From: Bacteroidales bacterium
GTDB taxonomy: Bacteria > Bacteroidota > Bacteroidia > Bacteroidales > UBA932
Reading direction: 5' to 3'
DNA length: 64,000 nt
Assembly: GCA_017437755.1 (NCBI GenBank)
Contig: JAFRXI010000043.1
Location: 62,001-126,000, forward strand
Below the pieces are notes generated by a model. The model was given only the letters and a program-made list of their open reading frames with translations, made no database searches and was not told where the DNA came from. A program made the position numbers and the translations under genes. Below, piece by piece: positions 40,091 to 49,433 of this stretch (within the stretch, counting starts at the first letter, position 1; every line of letters begins with the position of its first letter).

Positions 40091-41233
40091 ATGGGCAACA
40101 TCATCGACAGCCTCCAGCAGTTCTGGCAGTTCACGGGCTTTGCAAATTGCACGTGGCAGAACCTGGTGATGATACTCATCGGCATATTCTTCATCACCAT
40201 CGCCATACTTAAGGAATGGGAGCCGCTGCTGCTGGTCCCGATCGGCTTTGGCATGATAGTGGGGAACATCCCCATGTTTCCCGGCCTGAACATCGGGATT
40301 TATGAAGACGGTTCGGTCCTGAACATCCTGTACCAGGGCGTCAGGCAGGGCTGGTACCCTCCCCTGATCTTCCTGGGCATCGGAGCCATGACGGACTTCT
40401 CCGCCCTTATCTCGCAACCCCGGCTGGTCCTCATAGGTGCAGCCGCCCAGATGGGGATATTCGGTGCCTACCTCCTTGCCCTGCTCCTGGGCTTCGCCCC
40501 AAACGAAGCCGGCGCCATCGGCATTATCGGCGGTGCAGACGGTCCCACGGCCATTTTCCTGTCGTCCAAACTGGCTCCCGACCTGATGGGAGCGATCGCG
40601 GTTTCGGCCTACTCCTACATGGCCCTGGTACCCGTTATCCAAAGGCCCATAATGCTGGCCCTCACGTCCAGGAAGGAAAGGCTTATCCGGATGGAGAAGC
40701 CACGAGAGGTCAGCCAGAGGGAAAAGATAATCTTCCCTGTGGTCGGGTTCCTCATCACCGCCTTCATAGTTCCTTCGGGACTGCCGCTGCTGGGAATGCT
40801 CTTCTTCGGCAACCTCCTGAAGGAGAGCGGAGTAACCCGCCGCCTGGCCGAGACCGCAAGGGGACCGCTCATCGACGTGGTCACTACCCTGATAGGCCTC
40901 ACCGTGGGAGCGTCCACCCAGGCCGACAAGTTCCTGAGCGGAAAATCCCTGATGATATTCGGACTGGGACTGCTGTCGTTCGTGATAGCCACCGCGTCAG
41001 GGGTGCTTTTCGTCAAATTCATCAACCTGTTCAGGCCGGAAGGCAGGAAGATTAATCCGCTGATCGGCAACGCCGGAGTATCGGCCGTTCCCGACAGCGC
41101 CCGCGTCTCGGAAGTCGTGGGACGCGAAGCCGACCCCGACAACCATCTGCTCATGCAGGCCATGGCTCCCAACGTGGCTGGCGTCATCGGATCGGCCGTC
41201 GCAGCCGGAATTCTGCTGGGATTCCTCGGATAA
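40091..41233 (+). CDS. mmdB: Sodium-translocating decarboxylase beta subunit
   Basis: 380 residues with about nine to eleven membrane helices. The OadB/MmdB family segments are clear: FLGIGAMTDFSALISQP, LGFAPNEAGAIGIIGGADGPTAIFLSSKLAP and the last helices with ANVAGVIGSAVAAGILLGFLG-like text (MAPNVAGVIGSAVAAG). The D of GGADGPT is the family's Na+-coupling aspartate. It releases CO2 from carboxybiotin while exporting Na+. Last gene of the mmd operon. A T-run (ATTTTTTCC) follows about 15 nt later but without a convincing stem. Confidence 0.95.
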   Translation: MGNIIDSLQQFWQFTGFANCTWQNLVMILIGIFFITIAILKEWEPLLLVPIGFGMIVGNIPMFPGLNIGIYEDGSVLNILYQGVRQGWYPPLIFLGIGAMTDFSALISQPRLVLIGAAAQMGIFGAYLLALLLGFAPNEAGAIGIIGGADGPTAIFLSSKLAPDLMGAIAVSAYSYMALVPVIQRPIMLALTSRKERLIRMEKPREVSQREKIIFPVVGFLITAFIVPSGLPLLGMLFFGNLLKESGVTRRLAETARGPLIDVVTTLIGLTVGASTQADKFLSGKSLMIFGLGLLSFVIATASGVLFVKFINLFRPEGRKINPLIGNAGVSAVPDSARVSEVVGREADPDNHLLMQAMAPNVAGVIGSAVAAGILLGFLG

Positions 41234-41266
41234 ACGCCCCTCGGAGCCTATTTTTTCCCCATATCT

Positions 41267-41297
41267 TTTGGTTTATCGGATTTCTTGACTATTTTTG
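41267..41297 (+). promoter_or_regulatory. Promoter of the arginine biosynthesis operon
   Basis: TTTG (41267-41270), 19 nt, then TATTTTTG (41290-41297). Both boxes match the Bacteroidota consensus at the ideal spacing, making this the best promoter in the window. Transcription should start near 41303, leaving a leader of about 170 nt before the first enzyme gene. Confidence 0.75.
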
Positions 41298-41305
41298 TAT
41301 CCGGT

Positions 41306-41350
41306 ATGGGGCTGTTTTTCCCACATATTTCCAAGCGAGTCCGAAGATAG
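41306..41350 (+). CDS. Candidate arginine leader peptide
   Basis: A 14-codon ORF, MGLFFPHISKRVRR, begins within a few bases of the predicted transcription start and ends TAG at 41348-41350. Three of its last four residues are arginine, encoded CGA, CGA and AGA, codons that appear seldom in the neighbouring GC-rich genes. It stands before eight arginine pathway genes, and no arginine repressor gene is in the window. The arrangement is that of a ribosome-stalling leader that senses charged arginyl-tRNA. No ribosome-binding site is possible, so translation would be leaderless. Role inferred, not shown. Confidence 0.5.
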   Translation: MGLFFPHISKRVRR

Positions 41351-41456
41351 GAGGCGTAGAACCCTCCCACAATCTCCGGAAAAATTCCTTTACGACCATA
41401 GTTTTTCCGCCCGGCAATAGCAATTGACAATCACGGTTTGTCTTGCCATTAGGGGC
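41315..41456 (+). promoter_or_regulatory. Alternative RNA structures in the arginine leader
   Basis: TTTTTCC occurs inside the leader-peptide ORF (41315-41321) and again at 41402-41408. GGAAAAA (41378-41384) can pair with either copy, so the two helices exclude each other. A further hairpin, GCCCGGCAA (41409-41417) plus GACAA (41426-41430) with TTGTC, TTGCC (41438-41447) and GGGC (41453-41456), ends 14 nt before the GNAT start codon. GGAGG/CCTCC (41350-41367) forms a small stem just after the ORF. No terminator T-run follows the last hairpin, so control of translation is more likely than termination. The rest of 41234-41470 holds nothing else I can identify. Confidence 0.42.
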
Positions 41457-41470
41457 ATTGTAGCATCAAT

Positions 41471-42031
41471 ATGAATATTGAAGTCAAAGTGGCCGACAGC
41501 AGCCACACCATATATGCTGAAACCATCTGCCAGGAGATTTACGTCTCCTCCCTGGAGCGCAAGACAGGCATAGCAAAGAGGTCGCCCGATTACATCCGGG
41601 AGAAAATGCTGGCCGGGAAAGCTGTCATCGCCATCGCCGACGGAGGCGAGTTCGCAGGGTTCTCATACATCGAATCCTGGGGCGGAAAGAGTTTCGTGGC
41701 CAATTCCGGCCTGATAGTCGCCCACAAGTTCAGGGGGATGGGGATAGCCAGAAGGATCAAGGAACAGACCTTCATCCTGTCCAGGAAACTGTTCCCGGAT
41801 GCCAAGATCTTCTCCATCACCACCGGGGCCGCCGTCATGAAGATGAATTACGAATTCGGCTTCCGTCCCGTCCCCTACACCGAACTTACCGACGACCCCG
41901 AGTTCTGGAAAGGCTGCGAAGGCTGCCGCCATTTTGATATTCTCAAGGAGCATGAATACCGCATGTGCATATGCACCGGACTGCTCTATGACCCGAAGGA
42001 ACACCTTGAAATCCACCACCCTGGAGAATAA
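41471..42031 (+). CDS. GNAT acyltransferase of the arginine cluster (candidate N-acylglutamate synthase)
   Basis: 186 residues. The GNAT acetyl-CoA-binding motif is SGLIVAHKFRGMGIARRIKEQ (about 77-97 in short motifs), and the C-terminal half has a fourth strand TTGAAVMKMNYEFGFRPV. The end carries CEGCRHF ... CICTG, four cysteines that could hold a metal. It is the first gene behind the arginine leader, 4 nt before argG. No other acylglutamate synthase is present, so it is the natural candidate for making N-acetyl- or N-succinylglutamate. That is inference from position. Confidence 0.85.
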   Translation: MNIEVKVADSSHTIYAETICQEIYVSSLERKTGIAKRSPDYIREKMLAGKAVIAIADGGEFAGFSYIESWGGKSFVANSGLIVAHKFRGMGIARRIKEQTFILSRKLFPDAKIFSITTGAAVMKMNYEFGFRPVPYTELTDDPEFWKGCEGCRHFDILKEHEYRMCICTGLLYDPKEHLEIHHPGE

Positions 42032-42035
42032 TGCC

Positions 42036-43241
42036 ATGAAAAAGAAAGTAGTAGTAGCGTTCAGCGGAGGCCTTGACACCTCCTATACAGTAATGTACCT
42101 CGCCAAGGAAAAGGGGTACGACGTCTATGCGGCCTGTGCCGACACCGGCGGCTTCAGCGCAGCCCAGCTCAAAGCCAACGAGGAAAACGCCATCGCCCTC
42201 GGCGCCAAGAGCTACGTAACCCTGGACGTAACCGGGGAATATTACAGCAAAAGCCTGAAATACATGATTTTCGGGAATGTCCTCAGGAACGGGACATACC
42301 CCGTTTCAGTATCGTCGGAACGGATTTTCCAGGGAATCGCAATCGCCCGGTACGCCCGTGAGATAGGTGCCGACGCCATTGCCCACGGATCCACCGGCGC
42401 CGGGAACGACCAGGTCAGGTTTGACATGACCTTCCTCACCATGTGCCCCGAGATGGAGATAATAACCCTCACCAGGGACGGCAACCTCTCCAGGAAAGAG
42501 GAGGTCGACTACCTCAACGCACATGGCTTCAAGGCCGATTTCACCCGCCTGAAATACTCGTACAACGTGGGTATCTGGGGAACATCCATCTGCGGCGGCG
42601 AAATACTCGACTCCACAAAGGGCCTGCCGGAAAGCGCTTACCTCAAGCAGGTTACGCGTCAAGGCTCGGAAATCATCTCGCTGGGATTCACCAACGGCGA
42701 GCTCACCTCGGTAAACGGGGAGGAGTTCAACAGCCGCATCGATGCCATAAGGGCGGTTGAGGCGATTGGCTCAGCATACGGCATCGGAAGGGACATGCAC
42801 GTGGGAGACACCATCATCGGAATCAAGGGCAGGGTTGGATTCGAGGCCGCGGCCCCGATGATGATAATCGCCGCCCACAAGTTCCTGGAGAAATTCACCC
42901 TTTCCAAGTGGCAGCAGTACTGGAAGGACCAGGTTGCCAACTGGTACGGGATGTTCCTGCACGAGAGCCAGTACCTCGAGCCGGTGATGAGGGATATAGA
43001 GGCGATGCTGGAAAGCAGCCAGAGGAACGTAACCGGTACCGTAACCCTGGAACTCCGGCCCTACGGCTTCTCAACCGTGGGCGTGGACGCTCCCGGCGAC
43101 CTGCTCAAATCCAAACTCGGCGAGTACGGCGAAAGCCAGAAGGGATGGACTTCCGACGAGGCCAAGGGCTTCATAAAGATCAGCGCCACTCCCCTCAGGG
43201 TTTACTACGGCGCCCATCCGGAGGAACTGCCCCATGATTAG
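42036..43241 (+). CDS. argG: Argininosuccinate synthase
   Basis: 401 residues from ATG 42036. The ATP pyrophosphatase P-loop is VAFSGGLDTSYTV at residues 7-19. Other family motifs are AHGSTGAGNDQVRFD, YNVGIWGTSICGGEI and YGIGRDMHVGDTIIGIKGRVGFEAA (short elements in order). It joins citrulline and aspartate to give argininosuccinate. Its last 8 nt overlap argC (ATGATTAG). An earlier in-frame start exists but would lie inside the GNAT gene and lacks conservation. Confidence 0.96.
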   Translation: MKKKVVVAFSGGLDTSYTVMYLAKEKGYDVYAACADTGGFSAAQLKANEENAIALGAKSYVTLDVTGEYYSKSLKYMIFGNVLRNGTYPVSVSSERIFQGIAIARYAREIGADAIAHGSTGAGNDQVRFDMTFLTMCPEMEIITLTRDGNLSRKEEVDYLNAHGFKADFTRLKYSYNVGIWGTSICGGEILDSTKGLPESAYLKQVTRQGSEIISLGFTNGELTSVNGEEFNSRIDAIRAVEAIGSAYGIGRDMHVGDTIIGIKGRVGFEAAAPMMIIAAHKFLEKFTLSKWQQYWKDQVANWYGMFLHESQYLEPVMRDIEAMLESSQRNVTGTVTLELRPYGFSTVGVDAPGDLLKSKLGEYGESQKGWTSDEAKGFIKISATPLRVYYGAHPEELPHD

Positions 43242-44196
43242 GGCAGGAATCATAGGCGGGGCAGGATATACCGCCGGCGAACTGATCCGCATCCTGTTGA
43301 ACCATTCGGAGGTGGAACTGTCGTTCGTGCAGTCCGGCAGCAGCGCCGGGAAACACCTATGGGAGGTACACGAGGGCATTTTTGGGGAAACGGACCTGAC
43401 CTTTTCCGAGGGTTACGACCTGGATTCGGCAGATGTGCTTTTCCTCTGCTCGGCCCATGGCAGGAGCCGGGAATTCTGGCAGGAAAACGTCCGCCCGGAA
43501 GGGCTCAGGGTGGTTGACCTGGCCCAGGATTACAGGGACCAGAGCGACGGCTATGTCTACGGGCTTCCCGAACTTCAGCGCACCCGGATAGCATCCGCCA
43601 TGAAGGTGGCCAACCCCGGCTGCTTTGCCACGGCAATCCAGCTTTCCCTGCTGCCGCTGGCTGCCGCTTCCCTGCTGGAGGGGGACATCGCTGTCAACGC
43701 CGTCACCGGTTCCACCGGAGCTGGCGTAAAGCCTTCAGCCACAACCCATTTTAGCTGGAGGAACAACAATATCTCGGCATACAAGGTATTCACCCACCAG
43801 CATCTGCTGGAAATCGACAGGAACCTCCGCGGCCTCCAGCCTGAAAACTGGGGCTCGATAGGTTTCGTTCCCCTGAGGGGCGATTTCGCAAGGGGCATAT
43901 TTGCCACCGCTGTCCTCTCCTGCCCTCTTGGCGAGGAGGAACTGACCTCGCTCTACCGGGACTTCTATGCCGATGCCTCATTCACCTTCCACTGTCCCTT
44001 CCCCGTGGACCTCAAGCAGGTCGTAAACACCAACAAATGCCTTGTGCATGCGGAAAAACACGGATCCAAGGCAGTGATCACGGCTGCCATCGACAACCTT
44101 TTGAAGGGAGCGTCGGGGCAGGCCGTCCAGAACATGAACATAATGTTCGGCCTTGACGAGAAGGCCGGACTCCGTCTCAAATCATCCGCCTTCTGA
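43234..44196 (+). CDS. argC: N-acyl-gamma-glutamyl-phosphate reductase
   Basis: 320 residues. NADP-binding GIIGGAGYTAGELIRILLNH at the N-terminus; catalytic cysteine in VANPGCFATAIQLSLLPL (about residue 130); conserved GVKPSATTHFSWRNNN. It reduces N-acylglutamyl phosphate to the semialdehyde. Overlaps argG by 8 nt and ends 1 nt before argD. In a succinyl-type pathway it would use the succinylated substrate (inference from the argF' product). Confidence 0.95.
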   Translation: MIRAGIIGGAGYTAGELIRILLNHSEVELSFVQSGSSAGKHLWEVHEGIFGETDLTFSEGYDLDSADVLFLCSAHGRSREFWQENVRPEGLRVVDLAQDYRDQSDGYVYGLPELQRTRIASAMKVANPGCFATAIQLSLLPLAAASLLEGDIAVNAVTGSTGAGVKPSATTHFSWRNNNISAYKVFTHQHLLEIDRNLRGLQPENWGSIGFVPLRGDFARGIFATAVLSCPLGEEELTSLYRDFYADASFTFHCPFPVDLKQVVNTNKCLVHAEKHGSKAVITAAIDNLLKGASGQAVQNMNIMFGLDEKAGLRLKSSAF

Positions 44197-44197
44197 C

Positions 44198-45325
44198 ATG
44201 AAACTCTTTGACGTATATTCCTTGTTCGACGTTGCCCCGGAACGGGCTTCCGGCTGCAGGGTATGGGACAGTGAAGGTACCGAGTACCTGGACCTTTACG
44301 GCGGTCATGCCGTAATATCCATCGGACACTCCCACCCCGCCTATGTTGCCGCGCTGACAGAACAGGTACAAAAGATAGGATTCTATTCCAACAGTGTCCG
44401 CAGCCCCCTCCAGGAACAACTGGCATGGCGGCTCGGAGAGATTTCCGGCTACCCCGACTATTCCCTTTTCCTGGACAACAGCGGGGCCGAATCAAACGAG
44501 AACGCCGCTAAACTGGCTTCTTTCCATACCGGGAAAGACAGGATAGTGGCCTTCCGGAAAAGCTTCCACGGCAGGACCTCCGGAGCCGTTGCCCTGACCG
44601 ACAATCCCTCGATAGTATCGCCGTTCAATTCCCATCACAAGGTCAGTTTCTGCAACCTTGGGGACCTGGAAGAAGTTGAAAAGGTCCTGACGGGAGGCGA
44701 TGTGGCGGCTGTCATAACGGAAGGGATACAGGGCTGCGGCGGAATCAACATCCCCCCGGAGGGCTTCCTTCAGGGGCTCAGCCTCCTGTGCCGGAAATAC
44801 GGTTCAGTACTCATCCTGGACGAGGTCCAGAGCGGATACGGAAGGACCGGTAAGTTCTTCGCCCACCAGTGGGACGGCATACGGCCCGACATCATTACCA
44901 TGGGCAAGGGCATAGCCAACGGTTTCCCCTGCGGCGGAATACTGATTTCGCCTGCATTCCGTGCCGTAAAGGGTATGCTCGGAACCACCTTCGGGGGCAA
45001 TCACCTGGCCATGGCGGCCGCCCTGGCCGTTTTGGAAGTAATTGAAAAAGAAGGGCTTATAGATAACGCCCTGAAGGTCGGGAACTTCCTTATGGAAAAC
45101 ATGCCCCGGCATTCCTCCATATCCGACGTCCGCGGACGGGGCCTCATGATAGGGATTGAATTCAACACGGAAGTATCCCCTGTCAGGCTCAGGCTGCTCA
45201 AGGAGGAACACATTTTCACCGGCGTATCCGGAAAACGGATGATACGCCTGCTGCCCCCTCTCTGCCTGGGCATCCCCGAGGCTGAAAGATTCATCAGTTC
45301 ATTCAAAAAAGTACTTGGATCATGA
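44198..45325 (+). CDS. argD: N-acylornithine aminotransferase
   Basis: 375 residues from ATG 44198. A class III PLP aminotransferase: YGGHAVISIGHSHPAY, LDNSGAESNENAAKLA, and LDEVQSGYGRTGKFFAHQ. The PLP lysine is in TMGKGIANGFPCGGIL near residue 235. It transfers an amino group from glutamate to the N-acylglutamate semialdehyde. Ends in a 4-nt overlap with argF'. Confidence 0.95.
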   Translation: MKLFDVYSLFDVAPERASGCRVWDSEGTEYLDLYGGHAVISIGHSHPAYVAALTEQVQKIGFYSNSVRSPLQEQLAWRLGEISGYPDYSLFLDNSGAESNENAAKLASFHTGKDRIVAFRKSFHGRTSGAVALTDNPSIVSPFNSHHKVSFCNLGDLEEVEKVLTGGDVAAVITEGIQGCGGINIPPEGFLQGLSLLCRKYGSVLILDEVQSGYGRTGKFFAHQWDGIRPDIITMGKGIANGFPCGGILISPAFRAVKGMLGTTFGGNHLAMAAALAVLEVIEKEGLIDNALKVGNFLMENMPRHSSISDVRGRGLMIGIEFNTEVSPVRLRLLKEEHIFTGVSGKRMIRLLPPLCLGIPEAERFISSFKKVLGS

Positions 45326-46284
45326 GGAAGTTTTTCAATCCCTGCGACATAGGCCCCATCGACAAGGCCCTGGAGGAAGCGTTTGCCGTAAAGGCCGATC
45401 CCATGGGCTGGAAGCACCTGGGAGCCGGCAAGACCATAATGCTGGTATTCTTCAACAGCAGCCTCCGCACCAGGCTCAGCAGCCAGAAGGCCGCACTCAA
45501 CCTGGGCATGAATCCCATCGTCCTCAACATAGGCCAGGAAAGCTGGAAGCTTGAAACCGAACTTGGAGTGGTGATGGACGGGGACAAGGGAGAGCACATC
45601 AGGGAGGCCATCCCGGTGATGGGCTGCTACTGCGACATCATCGCCGTCCGCTCGTTTGCCGGCCTCACCGACCGGGATTACGACTATGCCGAAACCCTCC
45701 TCAACCAGTTCGTGGAGTATTCTGGCCGGCCGGTAATCAGCCTCGAATCAGGCACCGTCCATCCGTGCCAGGCCTTTGCCGACCTCATAACGATAGAGGA
45801 ATACAAGACAAAGCCGAGGCCAAAGGTGGTACTCACATGGGCTCCGCATCCCAAAGCCCTTCCGCAGGCAGTTCCCAACTCATTTGCGGAATGGATGGTA
45901 TATGCGGGCCTGGACCTTGTCATAGCAAACCCCGAGGGCTATGACCTGGATCCCAAATACACCATGGGCGCGCCCGTGCTTCACAACCAGATGGAGGCCC
46001 TGGAAGGAGCCGACTTCGTCTATGCCAAGAACTGGAGCTGCCCCGGTGTAAACAATCCTGCCGATTACGGGAAAGTCCTCTGCAAGGACATGGGCTGGAC
46101 CATTGATGCAGCACACATGGCCGTTACAGATAACGCCCGGTTCATGCACTGCCTCCCGGTCAGAAGGAATATGATTGTGACCGACGAGGTAATCGACTCC
46201 CCCAGGAGCATCGTGATACCGGAAGCCGCAAACCGGGTTGTTTCCGCACAGGTGGTAATGAAGAGGATGCTGGAATCACTATGA
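45322..46284 (+). CDS. argF': N-succinylornithine-type carbamoyltransferase
   Basis: 320 residues. Carbamoyl phosphate binding: FFNSSLRTRLSSQ (43-55), with HPCQ near residue 150. The acylornithine-specific loops WAPHPKALPQAVPNSFAEW and MHCLPVRRNMIVTDEVIDSP match the Bacteroides fragilis enzyme closely as I recall it. It carbamoylates N-succinyl- (or N-acetyl-) ornithine, not free ornithine. The residue known to set acyl preference (Pro90 in B. fragilis, Glu92 in Xanthomonas) aligns with Gly90 here, in MDGDKGEH. Acyl specificity is therefore probable, not certain. Overlaps both neighbours by 4 nt. Confidence 0.93.
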   Translation: MRKFFNPCDIGPIDKALEEAFAVKADPMGWKHLGAGKTIMLVFFNSSLRTRLSSQKAALNLGMNPIVLNIGQESWKLETELGVVMDGDKGEHIREAIPVMGCYCDIIAVRSFAGLTDRDYDYAETLLNQFVEYSGRPVISLESGTVHPCQAFADLITIEEYKTKPRPKVVLTWAPHPKALPQAVPNSFAEWMVYAGLDLVIANPEGYDLDPKYTMGAPVLHNQMEALEGADFVYAKNWSCPGVNNPADYGKVLCKDMGWTIDAAHMAVTDNARFMHCLPVRRNMIVTDEVIDSPRSIVIPEAANRVVSAQVVMKRMLESL

Positions 46285-47030
46285 TAACGGTTGTCAAAAT
46301 AGGCGGGAACGTAATTGATTCAGAAGAACTTACAGAGAGTTTCTGCAAGGATTTCGCAGCAATGGAAGGGCCCAGGGTGCTGATTCACGGCGGCGGTGTA
46401 ATGGCCACCAGGCTGCACAAGGCCCTCGGCGGGGAACCGAAGTTCATCGACGGAAGGCGGATTACCGATGCCGAAGCCCTCAAGGCGGCGGTGATGGTTT
46501 ATGCCGGATGGTGCAACAAGTCCCTGGTGGCCATGCTCCAGAAAATGGGCTGCAATGCAATGGGCCTTTCCGGATGCGACGCCGGAGCAATCACTGCGCG
46601 GCGCCGTCCCCCGCTTGGAGGCGTGGATTACGGCCTGGTTGGCGACGTAACCCCTGAAAGCGTAAATAAGCAATTGATAACCAGCCTTTTAAATGCAGGC
46701 ATAACTCCCGTTTTTTCAGCCATCAACCACGACGGGCAGGGGCAGCTTCTCAACACCAATGCCGACACCATGGCCTCGTCGATCGCTTCCGCACTTGAAG
46801 CGGAACTGGTAATCTGCTTTGAGAAGCCCGGGGTGCTGGGGCCCGACGGAGTGATACCTTCGATTTCGGAAAGCGGGTTCACCGCCCTCAAGGAGGCGGG
46901 GACAGTATCGGGTGGTATGGTCCCCAAGATTGAGAATGCCATCAAAGCCCTTAAAAGCGGTGCTACCAGCGTCAGGATAACTTCCAGCTCTGACCTCCTT
47001 TCCGGAGGCGGAACAATAATCAGCCTATGA
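46281..47030 (+). CDS. argB: N-acylglutamate kinase
   Basis: 249 residues, the amino-acid kinase fold. KIGGNVID at the N-terminus, the glycine loop LIHGGGVMATRLHKALG, GLSGCDAGAITARRR, NINAD-like LNTNADTMASSIASAL and SGGMVPKIENAIKAL are all present. It phosphorylates N-acetyl- or N-succinylglutamate. There is no N-terminal extension of the arginine-inhibited type, which suggests it is not feedback-inhibited in the usual way. Joined to its neighbours by ATGA overlaps on both sides. Confidence 0.94.
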   Translation: MITVVKIGGNVIDSEELTESFCKDFAAMEGPRVLIHGGGVMATRLHKALGGEPKFIDGRRITDAEALKAAVMVYAGWCNKSLVAMLQKMGCNAMGLSGCDAGAITARRRPPLGGVDYGLVGDVTPESVNKQLITSLLNAGITPVFSAINHDGQGQLLNTNADTMASSIASALEAELVICFEKPGVLGPDGVIPSISESGFTALKEAGTVSGGMVPKIENAIKALKSGATSVRITSSSDLLSGGGTIISL

Positions 47031-48115
47031 ACTGCCTGAAATACACAGACTTGCTCAAACGGATGGTAGCCGTACCCTCCCCTTCTTTCCAGGAAGAGGC
47101 GGTGGCCGGGCTGATCTGCTCCGAACTGGAAAAGGACGGGATTGAAGTCAGTCGCCCGGGAGGGAATATCCTGGCCGTCAAGCCCGGATATGACCCGCAC
47201 AGGCGCACTCTGGCCCTTATCGCCCACATGGATACCGTAGCCCCGAACAAGGGTTACACCAGGGACCCTTACGACCCGGGCGACGACACCGGCATCATAT
47301 ACGGACTGGGATCGAACGACGACGGAGGCTGTGTGGTGAGCATGATTGCCGCATTCACCCATTTCATGGATATTCCCCTGAATATCAACCTGATACTTAT
47401 TATTTCCAGGGAAGAGGAGCGCTCCGGTCCGGATGGCAGTTCCTTCCTGTTCGGCAAGGGGGGATTCTTTGAGACGTCGGCAGAATACCGTATGCCCGAC
47501 TGGGTGATAGTGGGAGAACCCACCGGACTGAGGGCTGCCAGCAGCGAGCGCGGGCTCCTGGTCCTGGACGCACTGGCAAAGGGGAAAGCCGGCCATGCCG
47601 CAAGGGACGAAGGGGTCAATGCCCTGTACATCGCCATGGAAGACATCGCCGCCCTCAGGGGGTACGACTTTGGAAGAATCTCAAAATCAATGGGCAAGGT
47701 CCATCTGGCGGTAACCATGATAAGTGCCGGAGAGGCCCACAACGTGGTTCCCGCGGAATGCCGCTTCACCGTGGACATACGCCCTACCGACGTTTACTCG
47801 AACGAGGAGATAGTTTCATCCCTCCAGGCAATCTGCAAGAGCACCCTGACCCCCAGGAGCCTTCACAACCGTTCTTCGGCCACTCCGGAAGGGTCTCTGC
47901 TCCTGAGGGCCGTAAGGGACTCGGGCATAGAGACTTTCTCCTCCCCCACCACCTCCGACTGGATGAGCATACCGGTGGACGCAATCAAGATAGGTCCGGG
48001 AGAATCCTCCCGCTCACACAAGGCCGACGAATTCATCCTGGTGGAAGAGATACGTCAGGCCATATCAACTTACATCAAACTCATAGGCTGCATCGATGAA
48101 TACTCTCTGGAATAA
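47027..48115 (+). CDS. argE: M20 deacylase, N-acylcitrulline/ornithine type
   Basis: 362 residues. Zn-peptidase motifs: LIAHMDTVAP (His-x-Asp), GLGSNDDGGCVVSMI (bridging Asp) and ISREEERSGPDG (catalytic Glu). The dimerisation domain follows (about 180-290). It removes the acyl group late in the pathway; after an N-acylornithine carbamoyltransferase the substrate would be N-acylcitrulline. Overlaps argB by 4 nt and argH by 20 nt. Confidence 0.9.
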   Translation: MNCLKYTDLLKRMVAVPSPSFQEEAVAGLICSELEKDGIEVSRPGGNILAVKPGYDPHRRTLALIAHMDTVAPNKGYTRDPYDPGDDTGIIYGLGSNDDGGCVVSMIAAFTHFMDIPLNINLILIISREEERSGPDGSSFLFGKGGFFETSAEYRMPDWVIVGEPTGLRAASSERGLLVLDALAKGKAGHAARDEGVNALYIAMEDIAALRGYDFGRISKSMGKVHLAVTMISAGEAHNVVPAECRFTVDIRPTDVYSNEEIVSSLQAICKSTLTPRSLHNRSSATPEGSLLLRAVRDSGIETFSSPTTSDWMSIPVDAIKIGPGESSRSHKADEFILVEEIRQAISTYIKLIGCIDEYSLE

Positions 48116-49433
48116 AGGAACTTCCGCAACGGAAATGGTGGAGAACTTCACCGTAGGGAACGACAGGGTGCTGGACCTGGCCCTTGCAAAGTACGACGTA
48201 GAAGGCTCAAAGGCACATATCGCCATGCTGTGCAGCATAGGGCTGCTCACACCCGACGAGTTCAATGCCCTGGACGCCGGACTCGACCGGATTGCGCAGA
48301 GCATCGGGCAGGACACTTTCAGGCTGGAAGACGACGTGGAGGACATCCACTCGCAGGTGGAACTGCTCCTGACCAGGGAACTCGGCGACCTTGGCAAGAA
48401 GATCCATTCCGGACGTTCCAGGAACGACCAGGTCCTGGTGGATATCAAGCTCTTCCTGCGCAGCCAGCTCACCCTGATCAGGGAAGAGGTCCTGGGACTT
48501 TTCAGCACCCTGCAGGGCCTGAGCGATAAATACCGCGAGGTCCTCCTGCCCGGATACACCCACCTTCAGATCGCCATGCCATCGTCGTTCGGACTCTGGT
48601 TCGGAGCCTATGCCGAGGCCCTGGTGGACGATATGCATTGCCTTGGTGCCGCCTACCGGATAGTCAACCGGAATCCGCTGGGTTCAGCCGCCGGATACGG
48701 TAATTCCTTCCCCCTTGACAGGGAGATGACCACCTCCCTGCTCGGGTTCGACAGCCCGGTTTACAACAGCGTCGCCGCCCAGATGCAGAGGGGGCGTACG
48801 GAAAGGGCCGTAGCCTCGGCCCTTGGGGGCATTGCGCTCACACTCAATAAGTTCGCCTCCGATTGCTGCCTTTACATGTGCCCGAATTTCGGCTTCATCC
48901 GCTTCCCCGACAACCTCACCACCGGTTCAAGCATAATGCCTCACAAGAAGAATCCCGACGTCTGGGAGATGGTCAGGGGCAAGTGCAACCGGATAATCGC
49001 TGCGGAAAACGAGATCTCCATGCTCTGCAGCAACATGCCTCACGGATACCACAGGGACTACCAGCTGCTCAAGGATATCCTTTTCCCCGTACTCGAAATG
49101 ATGCACGGCTGCCTCTCCATGACGGACTATATGCTGCAGCACATCATCGTCAACACGGAAATACTGGATTCGGATATATATACCCACATGTTCACGGTTG
49201 AGGAAGTCAACCGCAGGACCCTTTCCGGCGTCCCGTTCAGGGAAGCGTACAGGCAGGTGGGGATAGAGGCCGGCGAAGGCCGCTTCCGCTACCACACAAA
49301 CGGCCTCAAGGCTTCCGACCTGGGACATACGCATATAGGAAGCATCGGCAACCTTTGCAACGACCGCATCGCCTCCCTGATGCAGTCTGCCGCCGATTTT
49401 ATCTCTCCGGGTTGCAAGACTCCCGGGAAATGA
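48096..49433 (+). CDS. argH: Argininosuccinate lyase
   Basis: 445 residues. The fumarase-family signature TGSSIMPHKKNPDVWEMV lies near residue 275. Other landmarks are EDDVEDIHSQVELLLT, GKKIHSGRSRNDQVLVD and GYTHLQIAMPSSFGLW. It cleaves argininosuccinate to arginine and fumarate, the last step. It starts 20 nt inside the argE gene. The RND adaptor gene follows only 13 nt later, with TAACTTGG just before it as a weak possible -7 element. Confidence 0.96.
   Translation: MNTLWNKGTSATEMVENFTVGNDRVLDLALAKYDVEGSKAHIAMLCSIGLLTPDEFNALDAGLDRIAQSIGQDTFRLEDDVEDIHSQVELLLTRELGDLGKKIHSGRSRNDQVLVDIKLFLRSQLTLIREEVLGLFSTLQGLSDKYREVLLPGYTHLQIAMPSSFGLWFGAYAEALVDDMHCLGAAYRIVNRNPLGSAAGYGNSFPLDREMTTSLLGFDSPVYNSVAAQMQRGRTERAVASALGGIALTLNKFASDCCLYMCPNFGFIRFPDNLTTGSSIMPHKKNPDVWEMVRGKCNRIIAAENEISMLCSNMPHGYHRDYQLLKDILFPVLEMMHGCLSMTDYMLQHIIVNTEILDSDIYTHMFTVEEVNRRTLSGVPFREAYRQVGIEAGEGRFRYHTNGLKASDLGHTHIGSIGNLCNDRIASLMQSAADFISPGCKTPGK

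Follow-up and report, generated by a model that had tools for sequence, protein, structure and literature searches.

The window (the whole 64,000-nt stretch of DNA that we analyzed) comes from a Bacteroidales genome (G000; 2.88 Mb and 84.9% complete) and contains an arginine biosynthesis operon on the + strand. The first gene of the operon (41471..42031) encodes an argA-like GNAT acyltransferase, with a Pfam match below the cut-off and no match in NCBIfam. It is followed on the + strand, at 42036..49433, by argG, argC, argD, argF (of the N-acetylornithine type), argB, an argE-like gene, and argH. The products of argC, argF, argB, and argH score above the curated NCBIfam cut-off; argG, argD, and argE were assigned from their best NCBIfam matches, which are below it. 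The gene upstream (40091-41233, on the same strand as the leader) encodes the beta subunit of a sodium-pump decarboxylase, and 237 nt separate its end at 41233 from argA at 41471.

A first-pass annotation had placed an ideal promoter and an arginine leader peptide in this gap. Although a scan for sigma70 promoters found none on the + strand of 40800-41700, there is a promoter pair of the Bacteroidota type upstream of the leader ORF. A -33 element, TTTG (41267..41270, +), lies 19 nt before a -7 element, TATTTTTG (41290..41297, +), and TTTG/TANNTTTG is given as the promoter consensus of Bacteroidota in PMC6847099. In the register of that paper, the transcript is predicted to begin at 41302 and the leader ORF (41306..41350, +) to start at +5. 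That is, the ORF would start about 4 nt into the transcript and be nearly leaderless. (According to the same paper, Bacteroidota mRNAs lack Shine-Dalgarno sequences.) The ORF has 14 codons, encodes MGLFFPHISKRVRR, and ends with CGA GTC CGA AGA TAG, which contains the three arginine codons that had been pointed out. Its penultimate sense codon, CGA (41342-41344), is part of a CCGA anchor (41341..41344, +), and the relatives have CGA NNN stop here. CGA is the rarest arginine codon in the window's genes (3 of the 270 arginine codons in 15 ORFs).

The most conserved part of the leader lies further downstream and was not singled out by the first-pass annotation. It is a nearly invariant 27-nt core hairpin, GCAA-UN-GACAA-UCNNGGU-UUGUC-UUGC (41420..41446, +), with a bulge at 41424-41425 and a loop at 41431-41437. 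The pairing is extended by AAT (41416-41418) with ATT (41448-41450), or AAU/RUU in general form. A structure closed by GCCC/GGGGC ends at 41456, and the ATG of the first gene is at 41471; this is the hairpin that had been described as ending 14 nt before that gene. The raw folding energy is ordinary both for the whole leader (z -0.03) and for the window's core (z -0.30).

Leader peptides in related genomes

From two collections, we assembled 117 distinct loci that carry the core motif. (Among the matches listed, the titles are mostly those of Bacteroidales, Bacteroidia, or Candidatus Cryptobacteroides MAGs.) Two loci, from a Deltaproteobacterium MAG and a Eubacterium MAG (L138 and L157), lack argA and the 5' arm of the core's lower stem and are chance matches. 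Dropping them from the leader-frame count left 115 leaders; the 115 rows in which we tabulated the bulge and loop still include them.

We considered a leader to be testable if it had both a CCGA-N3-stop anchor and a promoter-like box followed by an ATG at a distance of 5-11 nt. The anchor is present in 104 of the 115 leaders, and 97 have the box and ATG as well, which leaves out 11 leaders without the anchor and 7 without the box and ATG. The -7 box TANNTTTG is present in 92 of the 97 testable leaders, with the ATG 6-11 nt behind it (mostly 7 or 8). The CGA is in frame with the promoter-proximal ATG in 95 of the 97, across 15 ORF lengths, and the span from ATG to CGA, with 8 to 29 codons between, is free of stops in 94 of these 95. 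In L012, one of the two exceptions, the wrong box was apparently picked; an in-frame MRNNGIIFKRVRI followed by a stop can be read by eye nearby.

The CGA codon is constant while the residues on both sides of it vary. The preceding codon is GTC, GAC, GCC, TGC, GGC, ATC, CCC, or ACC; the following codon encodes arginine, leucine, isoleucine, or other residues; and the stop codon is TAG in 91 of 95. The leaders are of three types: R (34 leaders, ending like SRRDRR; this is the window's kind), S (29 leaders, ending like IFVRL), and L (31 leaders, mostly longer, ending like LVRI). Arginine accounts for 293 of the 1603 residues of the leader peptides (198 of 1508 without the anchor), and many S-type peptides contain a single arginine. 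A leader ORF is also present in L208, L210, and L211, from genomes that were chosen independently of the motif. With the ORF, its frame, and its terminal CGA kept in about 100 related loci, sequence comparison suggests that a translated ORF with codons for the regulated amino acid precedes the arginine operon, as the first-pass annotation had proposed; the alignment of relatives that it called for bears out both the ORF and the CGA.

The leaders without the anchor are varied. One is cut by the end of its contig (L036), and two end with CGA CGA CGA TAA (L040 and L087). L044, L045, and L047 keep the core hairpin and have a diverged leader ORF; their leaders are much shortened (MIAxGV...), with an AGGGG/CCCTC hairpin in place of the usual anchor and AAGTGAGGCTCCC as the 3' flank of the core. 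L005, L064, and L068 also keep the core hairpin and have no leader ORF of the CGA kind. The core hairpin of L005 and L068 lies close to the predicted 5' end, starting about 8 nt away, and itself reads as a nearly leaderless ORF that opens with MQLTISVCLA. In L064, the hairpin is at the same place, but the ATG of MQLTISVCLA is missing. In L097 and L126, the core hairpin is present and we did not recognize a leader ORF.

How is the CGA codon decoded? In a member of the genus (G254), 35 of the 37 tRNA matches could be typed by ARAGORN, and among those 35 the arginine tRNAs have anticodons ACG, CCG, TCT, and CCT, with no TCG. Presumably, then, inosine allows the ACG tRNA to decode CGA. In a his-leader reporter in Salmonella, CGA was decoded more slowly than CGU and CGC (PMC4046918).

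Alternative hairpins and a model for attenuation

In the relatives, the end of the leader ORF (NNC-CGA-NNN-stop) falls right at the 5' arm of a hairpin formed by GGAGG and CCTCC. In the window, this hairpin (P1; 41350..41367, +) pairs GGAGG at 41350-41354, which overlaps the leader's stop codon, with CCTCC at 41363-41367. Both arms are present in 29 of 29 S leaders and in 32 of 32 aligned R leaders (the R alignment took in 32 of the 34 and left out 2). In R leaders, the base of P1 pairs CCG of the CGA anchor (41341-41343) with CGG (41377-41379), and these pairs are present in 30 of 32, counting G-U. A second hairpin in R leaders, P1b (41377..41409, +), pairs CGGAAAAAT (41377-41385) with GTTTTTCCG (41401-41409). 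At least 7 of its 9 pairs are present in 31 of 34 R leaders, as compared to 17% of shuffles, and all 9 are present in 26 of 34, as compared to 0% of shuffles. P1b also covaries, with exchanges of A-U to U-A at two pairs, and one leader (L085) has no recognizable P1b arm. The first three bases of P1b would compete with the base of the hairpin that holds the CGA: because the base of P1 and P1b share this CGG, they should be mutually exclusive in R-type leaders.

The first-pass annotation had proposed another competition, in which GGAAAAA (41378-41384) pairs with either of two copies of TTTTTCC, one within the ORF (41315-41321) and one downstream (41402-41408). The downstream pairing holds up, as it is conserved and covaries, but the copy within the ORF is present in just 1 of 33 R leaders (that of the window), so the competition among three segments is not supported.

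From these comparisons, we think it probable that the leader is a ribosome-mediated arginine attenuator. If arginyl-tRNA is scarce, the ribosome would wait at CGA, the rarest arginine codon of the window's genes, and would cover CCGA and GGAGG. P1 could then not close, so the next hairpin (P1b in the window's type) could form fully. If arginine is plentiful, the ribosome would terminate at UAG and leave, and P1 would close down to CCGA. The choice between P1 and P1b would be relayed to argA via the conserved core hairpin. On the + strand between 41302 and 41471, we found no terminator-like site and no U-run terminator, and the output is most likely translation or the fate of the transcript rather than an intrinsic terminator; both the step and its direction are our conjecture. 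A caveat to the decoding model is that CCGA is invariant at the nucleotide level, even at the C that belongs to the preceding codon, so part of the constraint may reflect RNA pairing instead of decoding.

To look for the control by translation access that the first-pass annotation had considered, we folded 90 leaders with and without the footprint of the stalled ribosome. Masking the footprint shifts the accessibility of the argA start without a common direction (means of 0.455 free and 0.459 stalled for S, 0.524 and 0.554 for R, and 0.564 and 0.545 for L). From the free to the stalled state, the probability of the core's upper stem goes from 0.55 to 0.78 in R leaders, from 0.70 to 0.71 in S leaders, and from 0.64 to 0.63 in L leaders.

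Conservation of the core hairpin and what it might bind

In a sample of the order, the core is present in 2 of 247 genomes, both from the window's genus, and in 0 of the 245 others. Within the genus, a scan that allowed three mismatches found 118 matches in 117 of 400 genomes, and all but one of the 117 (116) have a single copy. The exception, G370, carries two core motifs on two contigs (L039 and the contig of L067), with a different argA orthologue behind each, and this MAG is probably a mixed bin. The 118 matches vary only at the second base of the bulge, at two loop bases, and once at one further loop base. A later scan used an exact pattern that fixes most letters of the core, so the invariance of those matches proves less. 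In the alignment, the cells of the core are 98.2% paired, as compared to 27-43% when the pairing is slid; 9 of the 12 pairs never vary (most are fixed by the scan), and a double change occurs once at each of two outer pairs. An argA orthologue is the next gene in 111 of the 117 core loci, starting 44-175 nt past the GACAAT of the core. The other six are the two chance matches, three sequences that end too soon, and L062, where a metallophosphoesterase-like gene directly follows the leader (L062 and genome G645:C1:14316-14873) and the argA orthologue is about 1.5 kb further along on the same strand.

No Rfam covariance model reached its gathering score in the 64-kb window, none (T-box included) matched 41250-41500 at E up to 10, and nothing credible was found in five relatives. 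We rejected two other ideas about the core. It is not a conserved peptide (QLTISVCLA), because that frame holds a TAG in several species and the frame upstream is not the same in all loci. And kissing of the CCGA with a UCGG loop cannot be general, since the loop is NAGG in 43 of 115 rows.

We looked for partners that could switch with the core. An outer helix around it shows weak covariation (permutation p = 0.049 overall across 101 loci; 0.017 for L, 0.57 for S, 0.11 for R, and 0.86 for the rest). Downstream of the core, at +50 to +55, 28 of 29 S leaders have G[AG]CA[AT]TCC, which can pair with the 3' arm of the core and may be its switch partner. For R leaders, the best downstream partner is slightly better than shuffles (-11.2 as compared to -10.2 kcal/mol) and lies mostly inside the argA coding region; for L leaders, the best partner is no better than shuffles (-9.6 in both cases). 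Two loci, L208 and L211, are a natural deletion experiment. Upstream of argA (on the reverse strand), they keep the leader ORF and the 3' half of the core but are missing its 5' half, GCAATTGACAATC, and they keep the downstream GACAATCC, which is complementary to the remaining half.

Could the core be a natural arginine aptamer? Arginine would be sandwiched at the U-N bulge, which would stabilize the hairpin and lower expression of the arginine operon. This is compatible with an attenuator, and the leader ORF would be a second sensor, at the level of tRNA. In the sandwich, the bulged U would lie over the A-U pair two above, with the G-C pair just above and the A below. This layout (A-U, bulged U and N, G-C, A-U) equals that of the arginine sandwiches in TAR and 7SK (PMC6189040, PMC11885821). 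The variation at the bulge also follows the rule reported for binding of Tat: all 115 rows have T as the first base, and the second is T in 105, C in 6, and G in 4 (two of the rows are the chance matches). As reported in those papers, the first U of the TAR bulge is essential for binding Tat, the next base can be any, and the third can be deleted (PMC6189040, PMC11885821). Also, the 5' arm of the lower stem (GCAA), which is outside the scan pattern, is intact in 113 of 115 rows, with L138 and L157 as the exceptions. A conserved domain that is able to fold into a hairpin and has no match in Rfam lies ahead of the genes of the ligand's pathway, and we infer that it acts as RNA.

Several observations argue against an aptamer, however. 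There is no double change at the nine inner pairs in 59 distinct rows, although most of these letters are fixed by the scan pattern, and there is none among the 118 three-mismatch matches either; the stem of an aptamer would be expected to drift. The hairpin or its 5' half is missing from L208, L210, and L211, even though these loci retain the leader ORF. With G as the second base of the bulge, the predicted bulge shifts. The folding energy of the window's core is ordinary, as noted above, and we noticed the likeness to TAR after the fact. Overall, an aptamer is possible but unlikely, and we are just as tentative about its fuller form, in which the core would be a bacterial arginine riboswitch with a TAR/7SK-like sandwich bulge in series with the rare-codon leader peptide.

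Another possibility is that the core is a DNA operator, with the dyad GACAA-N7-TTGTC bound by an unknown transcription factor within the transcribed leader. The 27-mer forms a dyad around a variable center, its stem is unchanged in the 118 matches, and 116 of 117 genomes have a single copy. But for the outer arms, GCAA and TTGC, to be complementary, two bases must bulge out, which is in keeping with an RNA and not with a symmetric DNA site. Wherever we recognized a promoter and start, the -7 box starts between 25 and about 200 nt ahead of the motif, and in 111 of 117 loci argA follows the core and points the same way. Furthermore, L208 and L211 lose the left half of the dyad and keep the right half along with the distant complementary strand, GACAATCC. 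We consider an operator to be quite unlikely.

Arginine can also be sensed by arrest of the nascent chain, as in the fungal AAP and the bacterial SpeFL. If the leader worked in this way, it would respond to arginine itself and not to the supply of charged tRNA. The conserved end of the peptides (VRL, VRI, or RRxRR), which adjoins the stop codon, fits with this, but the N-terminal part varies, the peptides come in 15 lengths, and many of the S type are just 11 residues long, which makes arrest very unlikely. Finally, we think it very unlikely that the core is a site for an RNA-binding protein such as arginyl-tRNA synthetase, which might mistake the stem-loop (5 pairs and a 7-nt loop) for an anticodon arm: the loop, UCNNGGU, reads N-C-G, the arginine anticodon pattern, in 72 of 115 rows, but it reads N-A-G in the other 43 (two of which are chance matches), and the equivalent of tRNA position 33, which is U in tRNAs, is C in all 115 rows (mostly fixed by the scan) and T just once in the three-mismatch scan.

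Relationship to ArgR and to other leaders

The control of arginine biosynthesis in bacteria is usually explained by the repressor ArgR. The first-pass annotation found no argR in the window, and this extends to the genome assembly: we found no match to ArgR (PF02863) in G000, which is 84.9% complete. Among the 400 genomes of the genus, 142 have PF02863, 117 have the motif, and 2 (G178 and G393) have both. If we consider the 259 genomes that have argC, then 2 have both, 109 have the motif only, 112 have ArgR only, and 36 have neither. Fisher tests of this exclusion give 1.6e-24 and 3.4e-38, ignoring kinship. On a tree of argA with 71 rows from a chosen part of the loci (34 with the motif, 12 with ArgR, 22 with neither, and 3 from outside), the motif requires 12 changes and ArgR requires 6. 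Nine of the 12 ArgR rows are in one clade without the motif, and the other three are among the motif rows. Because the ArgR rows are clustered, only a handful of events underlie the exclusion, which is partly phylogenetic.

ArgR does the same job as is proposed for the leader, namely arginine control of the arg genes, and argR is directly before argA in G030 and G018. In contrast, 115 of the 117 genomes with the motif, and the window's genome, have no ArgR match. In the 36 genomes with argC and neither ArgR nor the pattern, a search for diverged hairpins gave matches at E up to 1 in 15 (the best E was 0.014). Many of these genomes seem to have short, plain leaders, as judged by eye (28 of the 36 were searched, and 25 have argA), so the leader element is dispensable. 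In one genome (G397; L204), a tRNA-like gene, found by eye, is directly upstream of argA and has a promoter-like box ahead of it.

In the classical attenuators of his, trp, and leu operons, as in the window, codons for the regulated amino acid are in a leader before the biosynthetic operon, and mutually exclusive hairpins, like those proposed here, decide the outcome. Unlike these, the window's leader shows no U-run terminator. To our knowledge, a nearly leaderless start and an additional, near-invariant hairpin are not features of classical his, trp, or leu attenuators.

Two other leaders are instructive. First, as in Salmonella orf34/speF (PMC6386406), a short ORF contains arginine codons, the position of the ribosome would pick the RNA structure, and a hairpin lies directly past the stop codon. 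However, the speF leader controls an ornithine decarboxylase, is about 500 nt long, and according to that paper senses arginine at early, consecutive AGG-CGG codons, with the arginine codon next to the stop being dispensable. Rare and frequent arginine codons worked alike there (PMC6386406), which is a caution for our CGA model. Second, in rbfL/rbf of Staphylococcus aureus, rare arginine codons in a small upstream ORF likewise report scarcity by pausing, but the ORF is led by a Shine-Dalgarno sequence, and pausing is described as blocking an overlapping ribosome-binding site and lowering a biofilm regulator (PMC13009471).

As for the sandwich, the core shares the secondary layout around the bulge with TAR and 7SK. 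Those RNAs bind the arginine side chains of proteins, and TAR also binds argininamide (PMC6189040, PMC11885821); the likeness of the core is in layout only. A claim of a fungal arginine riboswitch was judged to be insufficiently supported by a 2022 review (PMC10043782). In the CC-licensed part of PMC, we found the phrase "arginine riboswitch" in one paper, in passing (PMC5984629), and no report of a bacterial arginine riboswitch or of an arginine-codon leader before an arginine biosynthetic operon in Bacteroidota.

Binding of arginine by the hairpin would make it a natural arginine riboswitch and would link the arginine sandwiches of viral and host RNAs to a metabolite sensor. In species that lack ArgR, one short RNA would then respond to charged tRNA-Arg as well as to free arginine. 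Aside from the aptamer, the leader combines a nearly leaderless ORF, a fixed codon that is the rarest for arginine, and an uncatalogued hairpin, and it offers a compact system for testing ribosome-mediated control where mRNAs have no Shine-Dalgarno sequences, as is the case in this phylum (PMC6847099). More broadly, a large and mostly uncultured genus of gut bacteria seems to use RNA-based control of its arginine operon.
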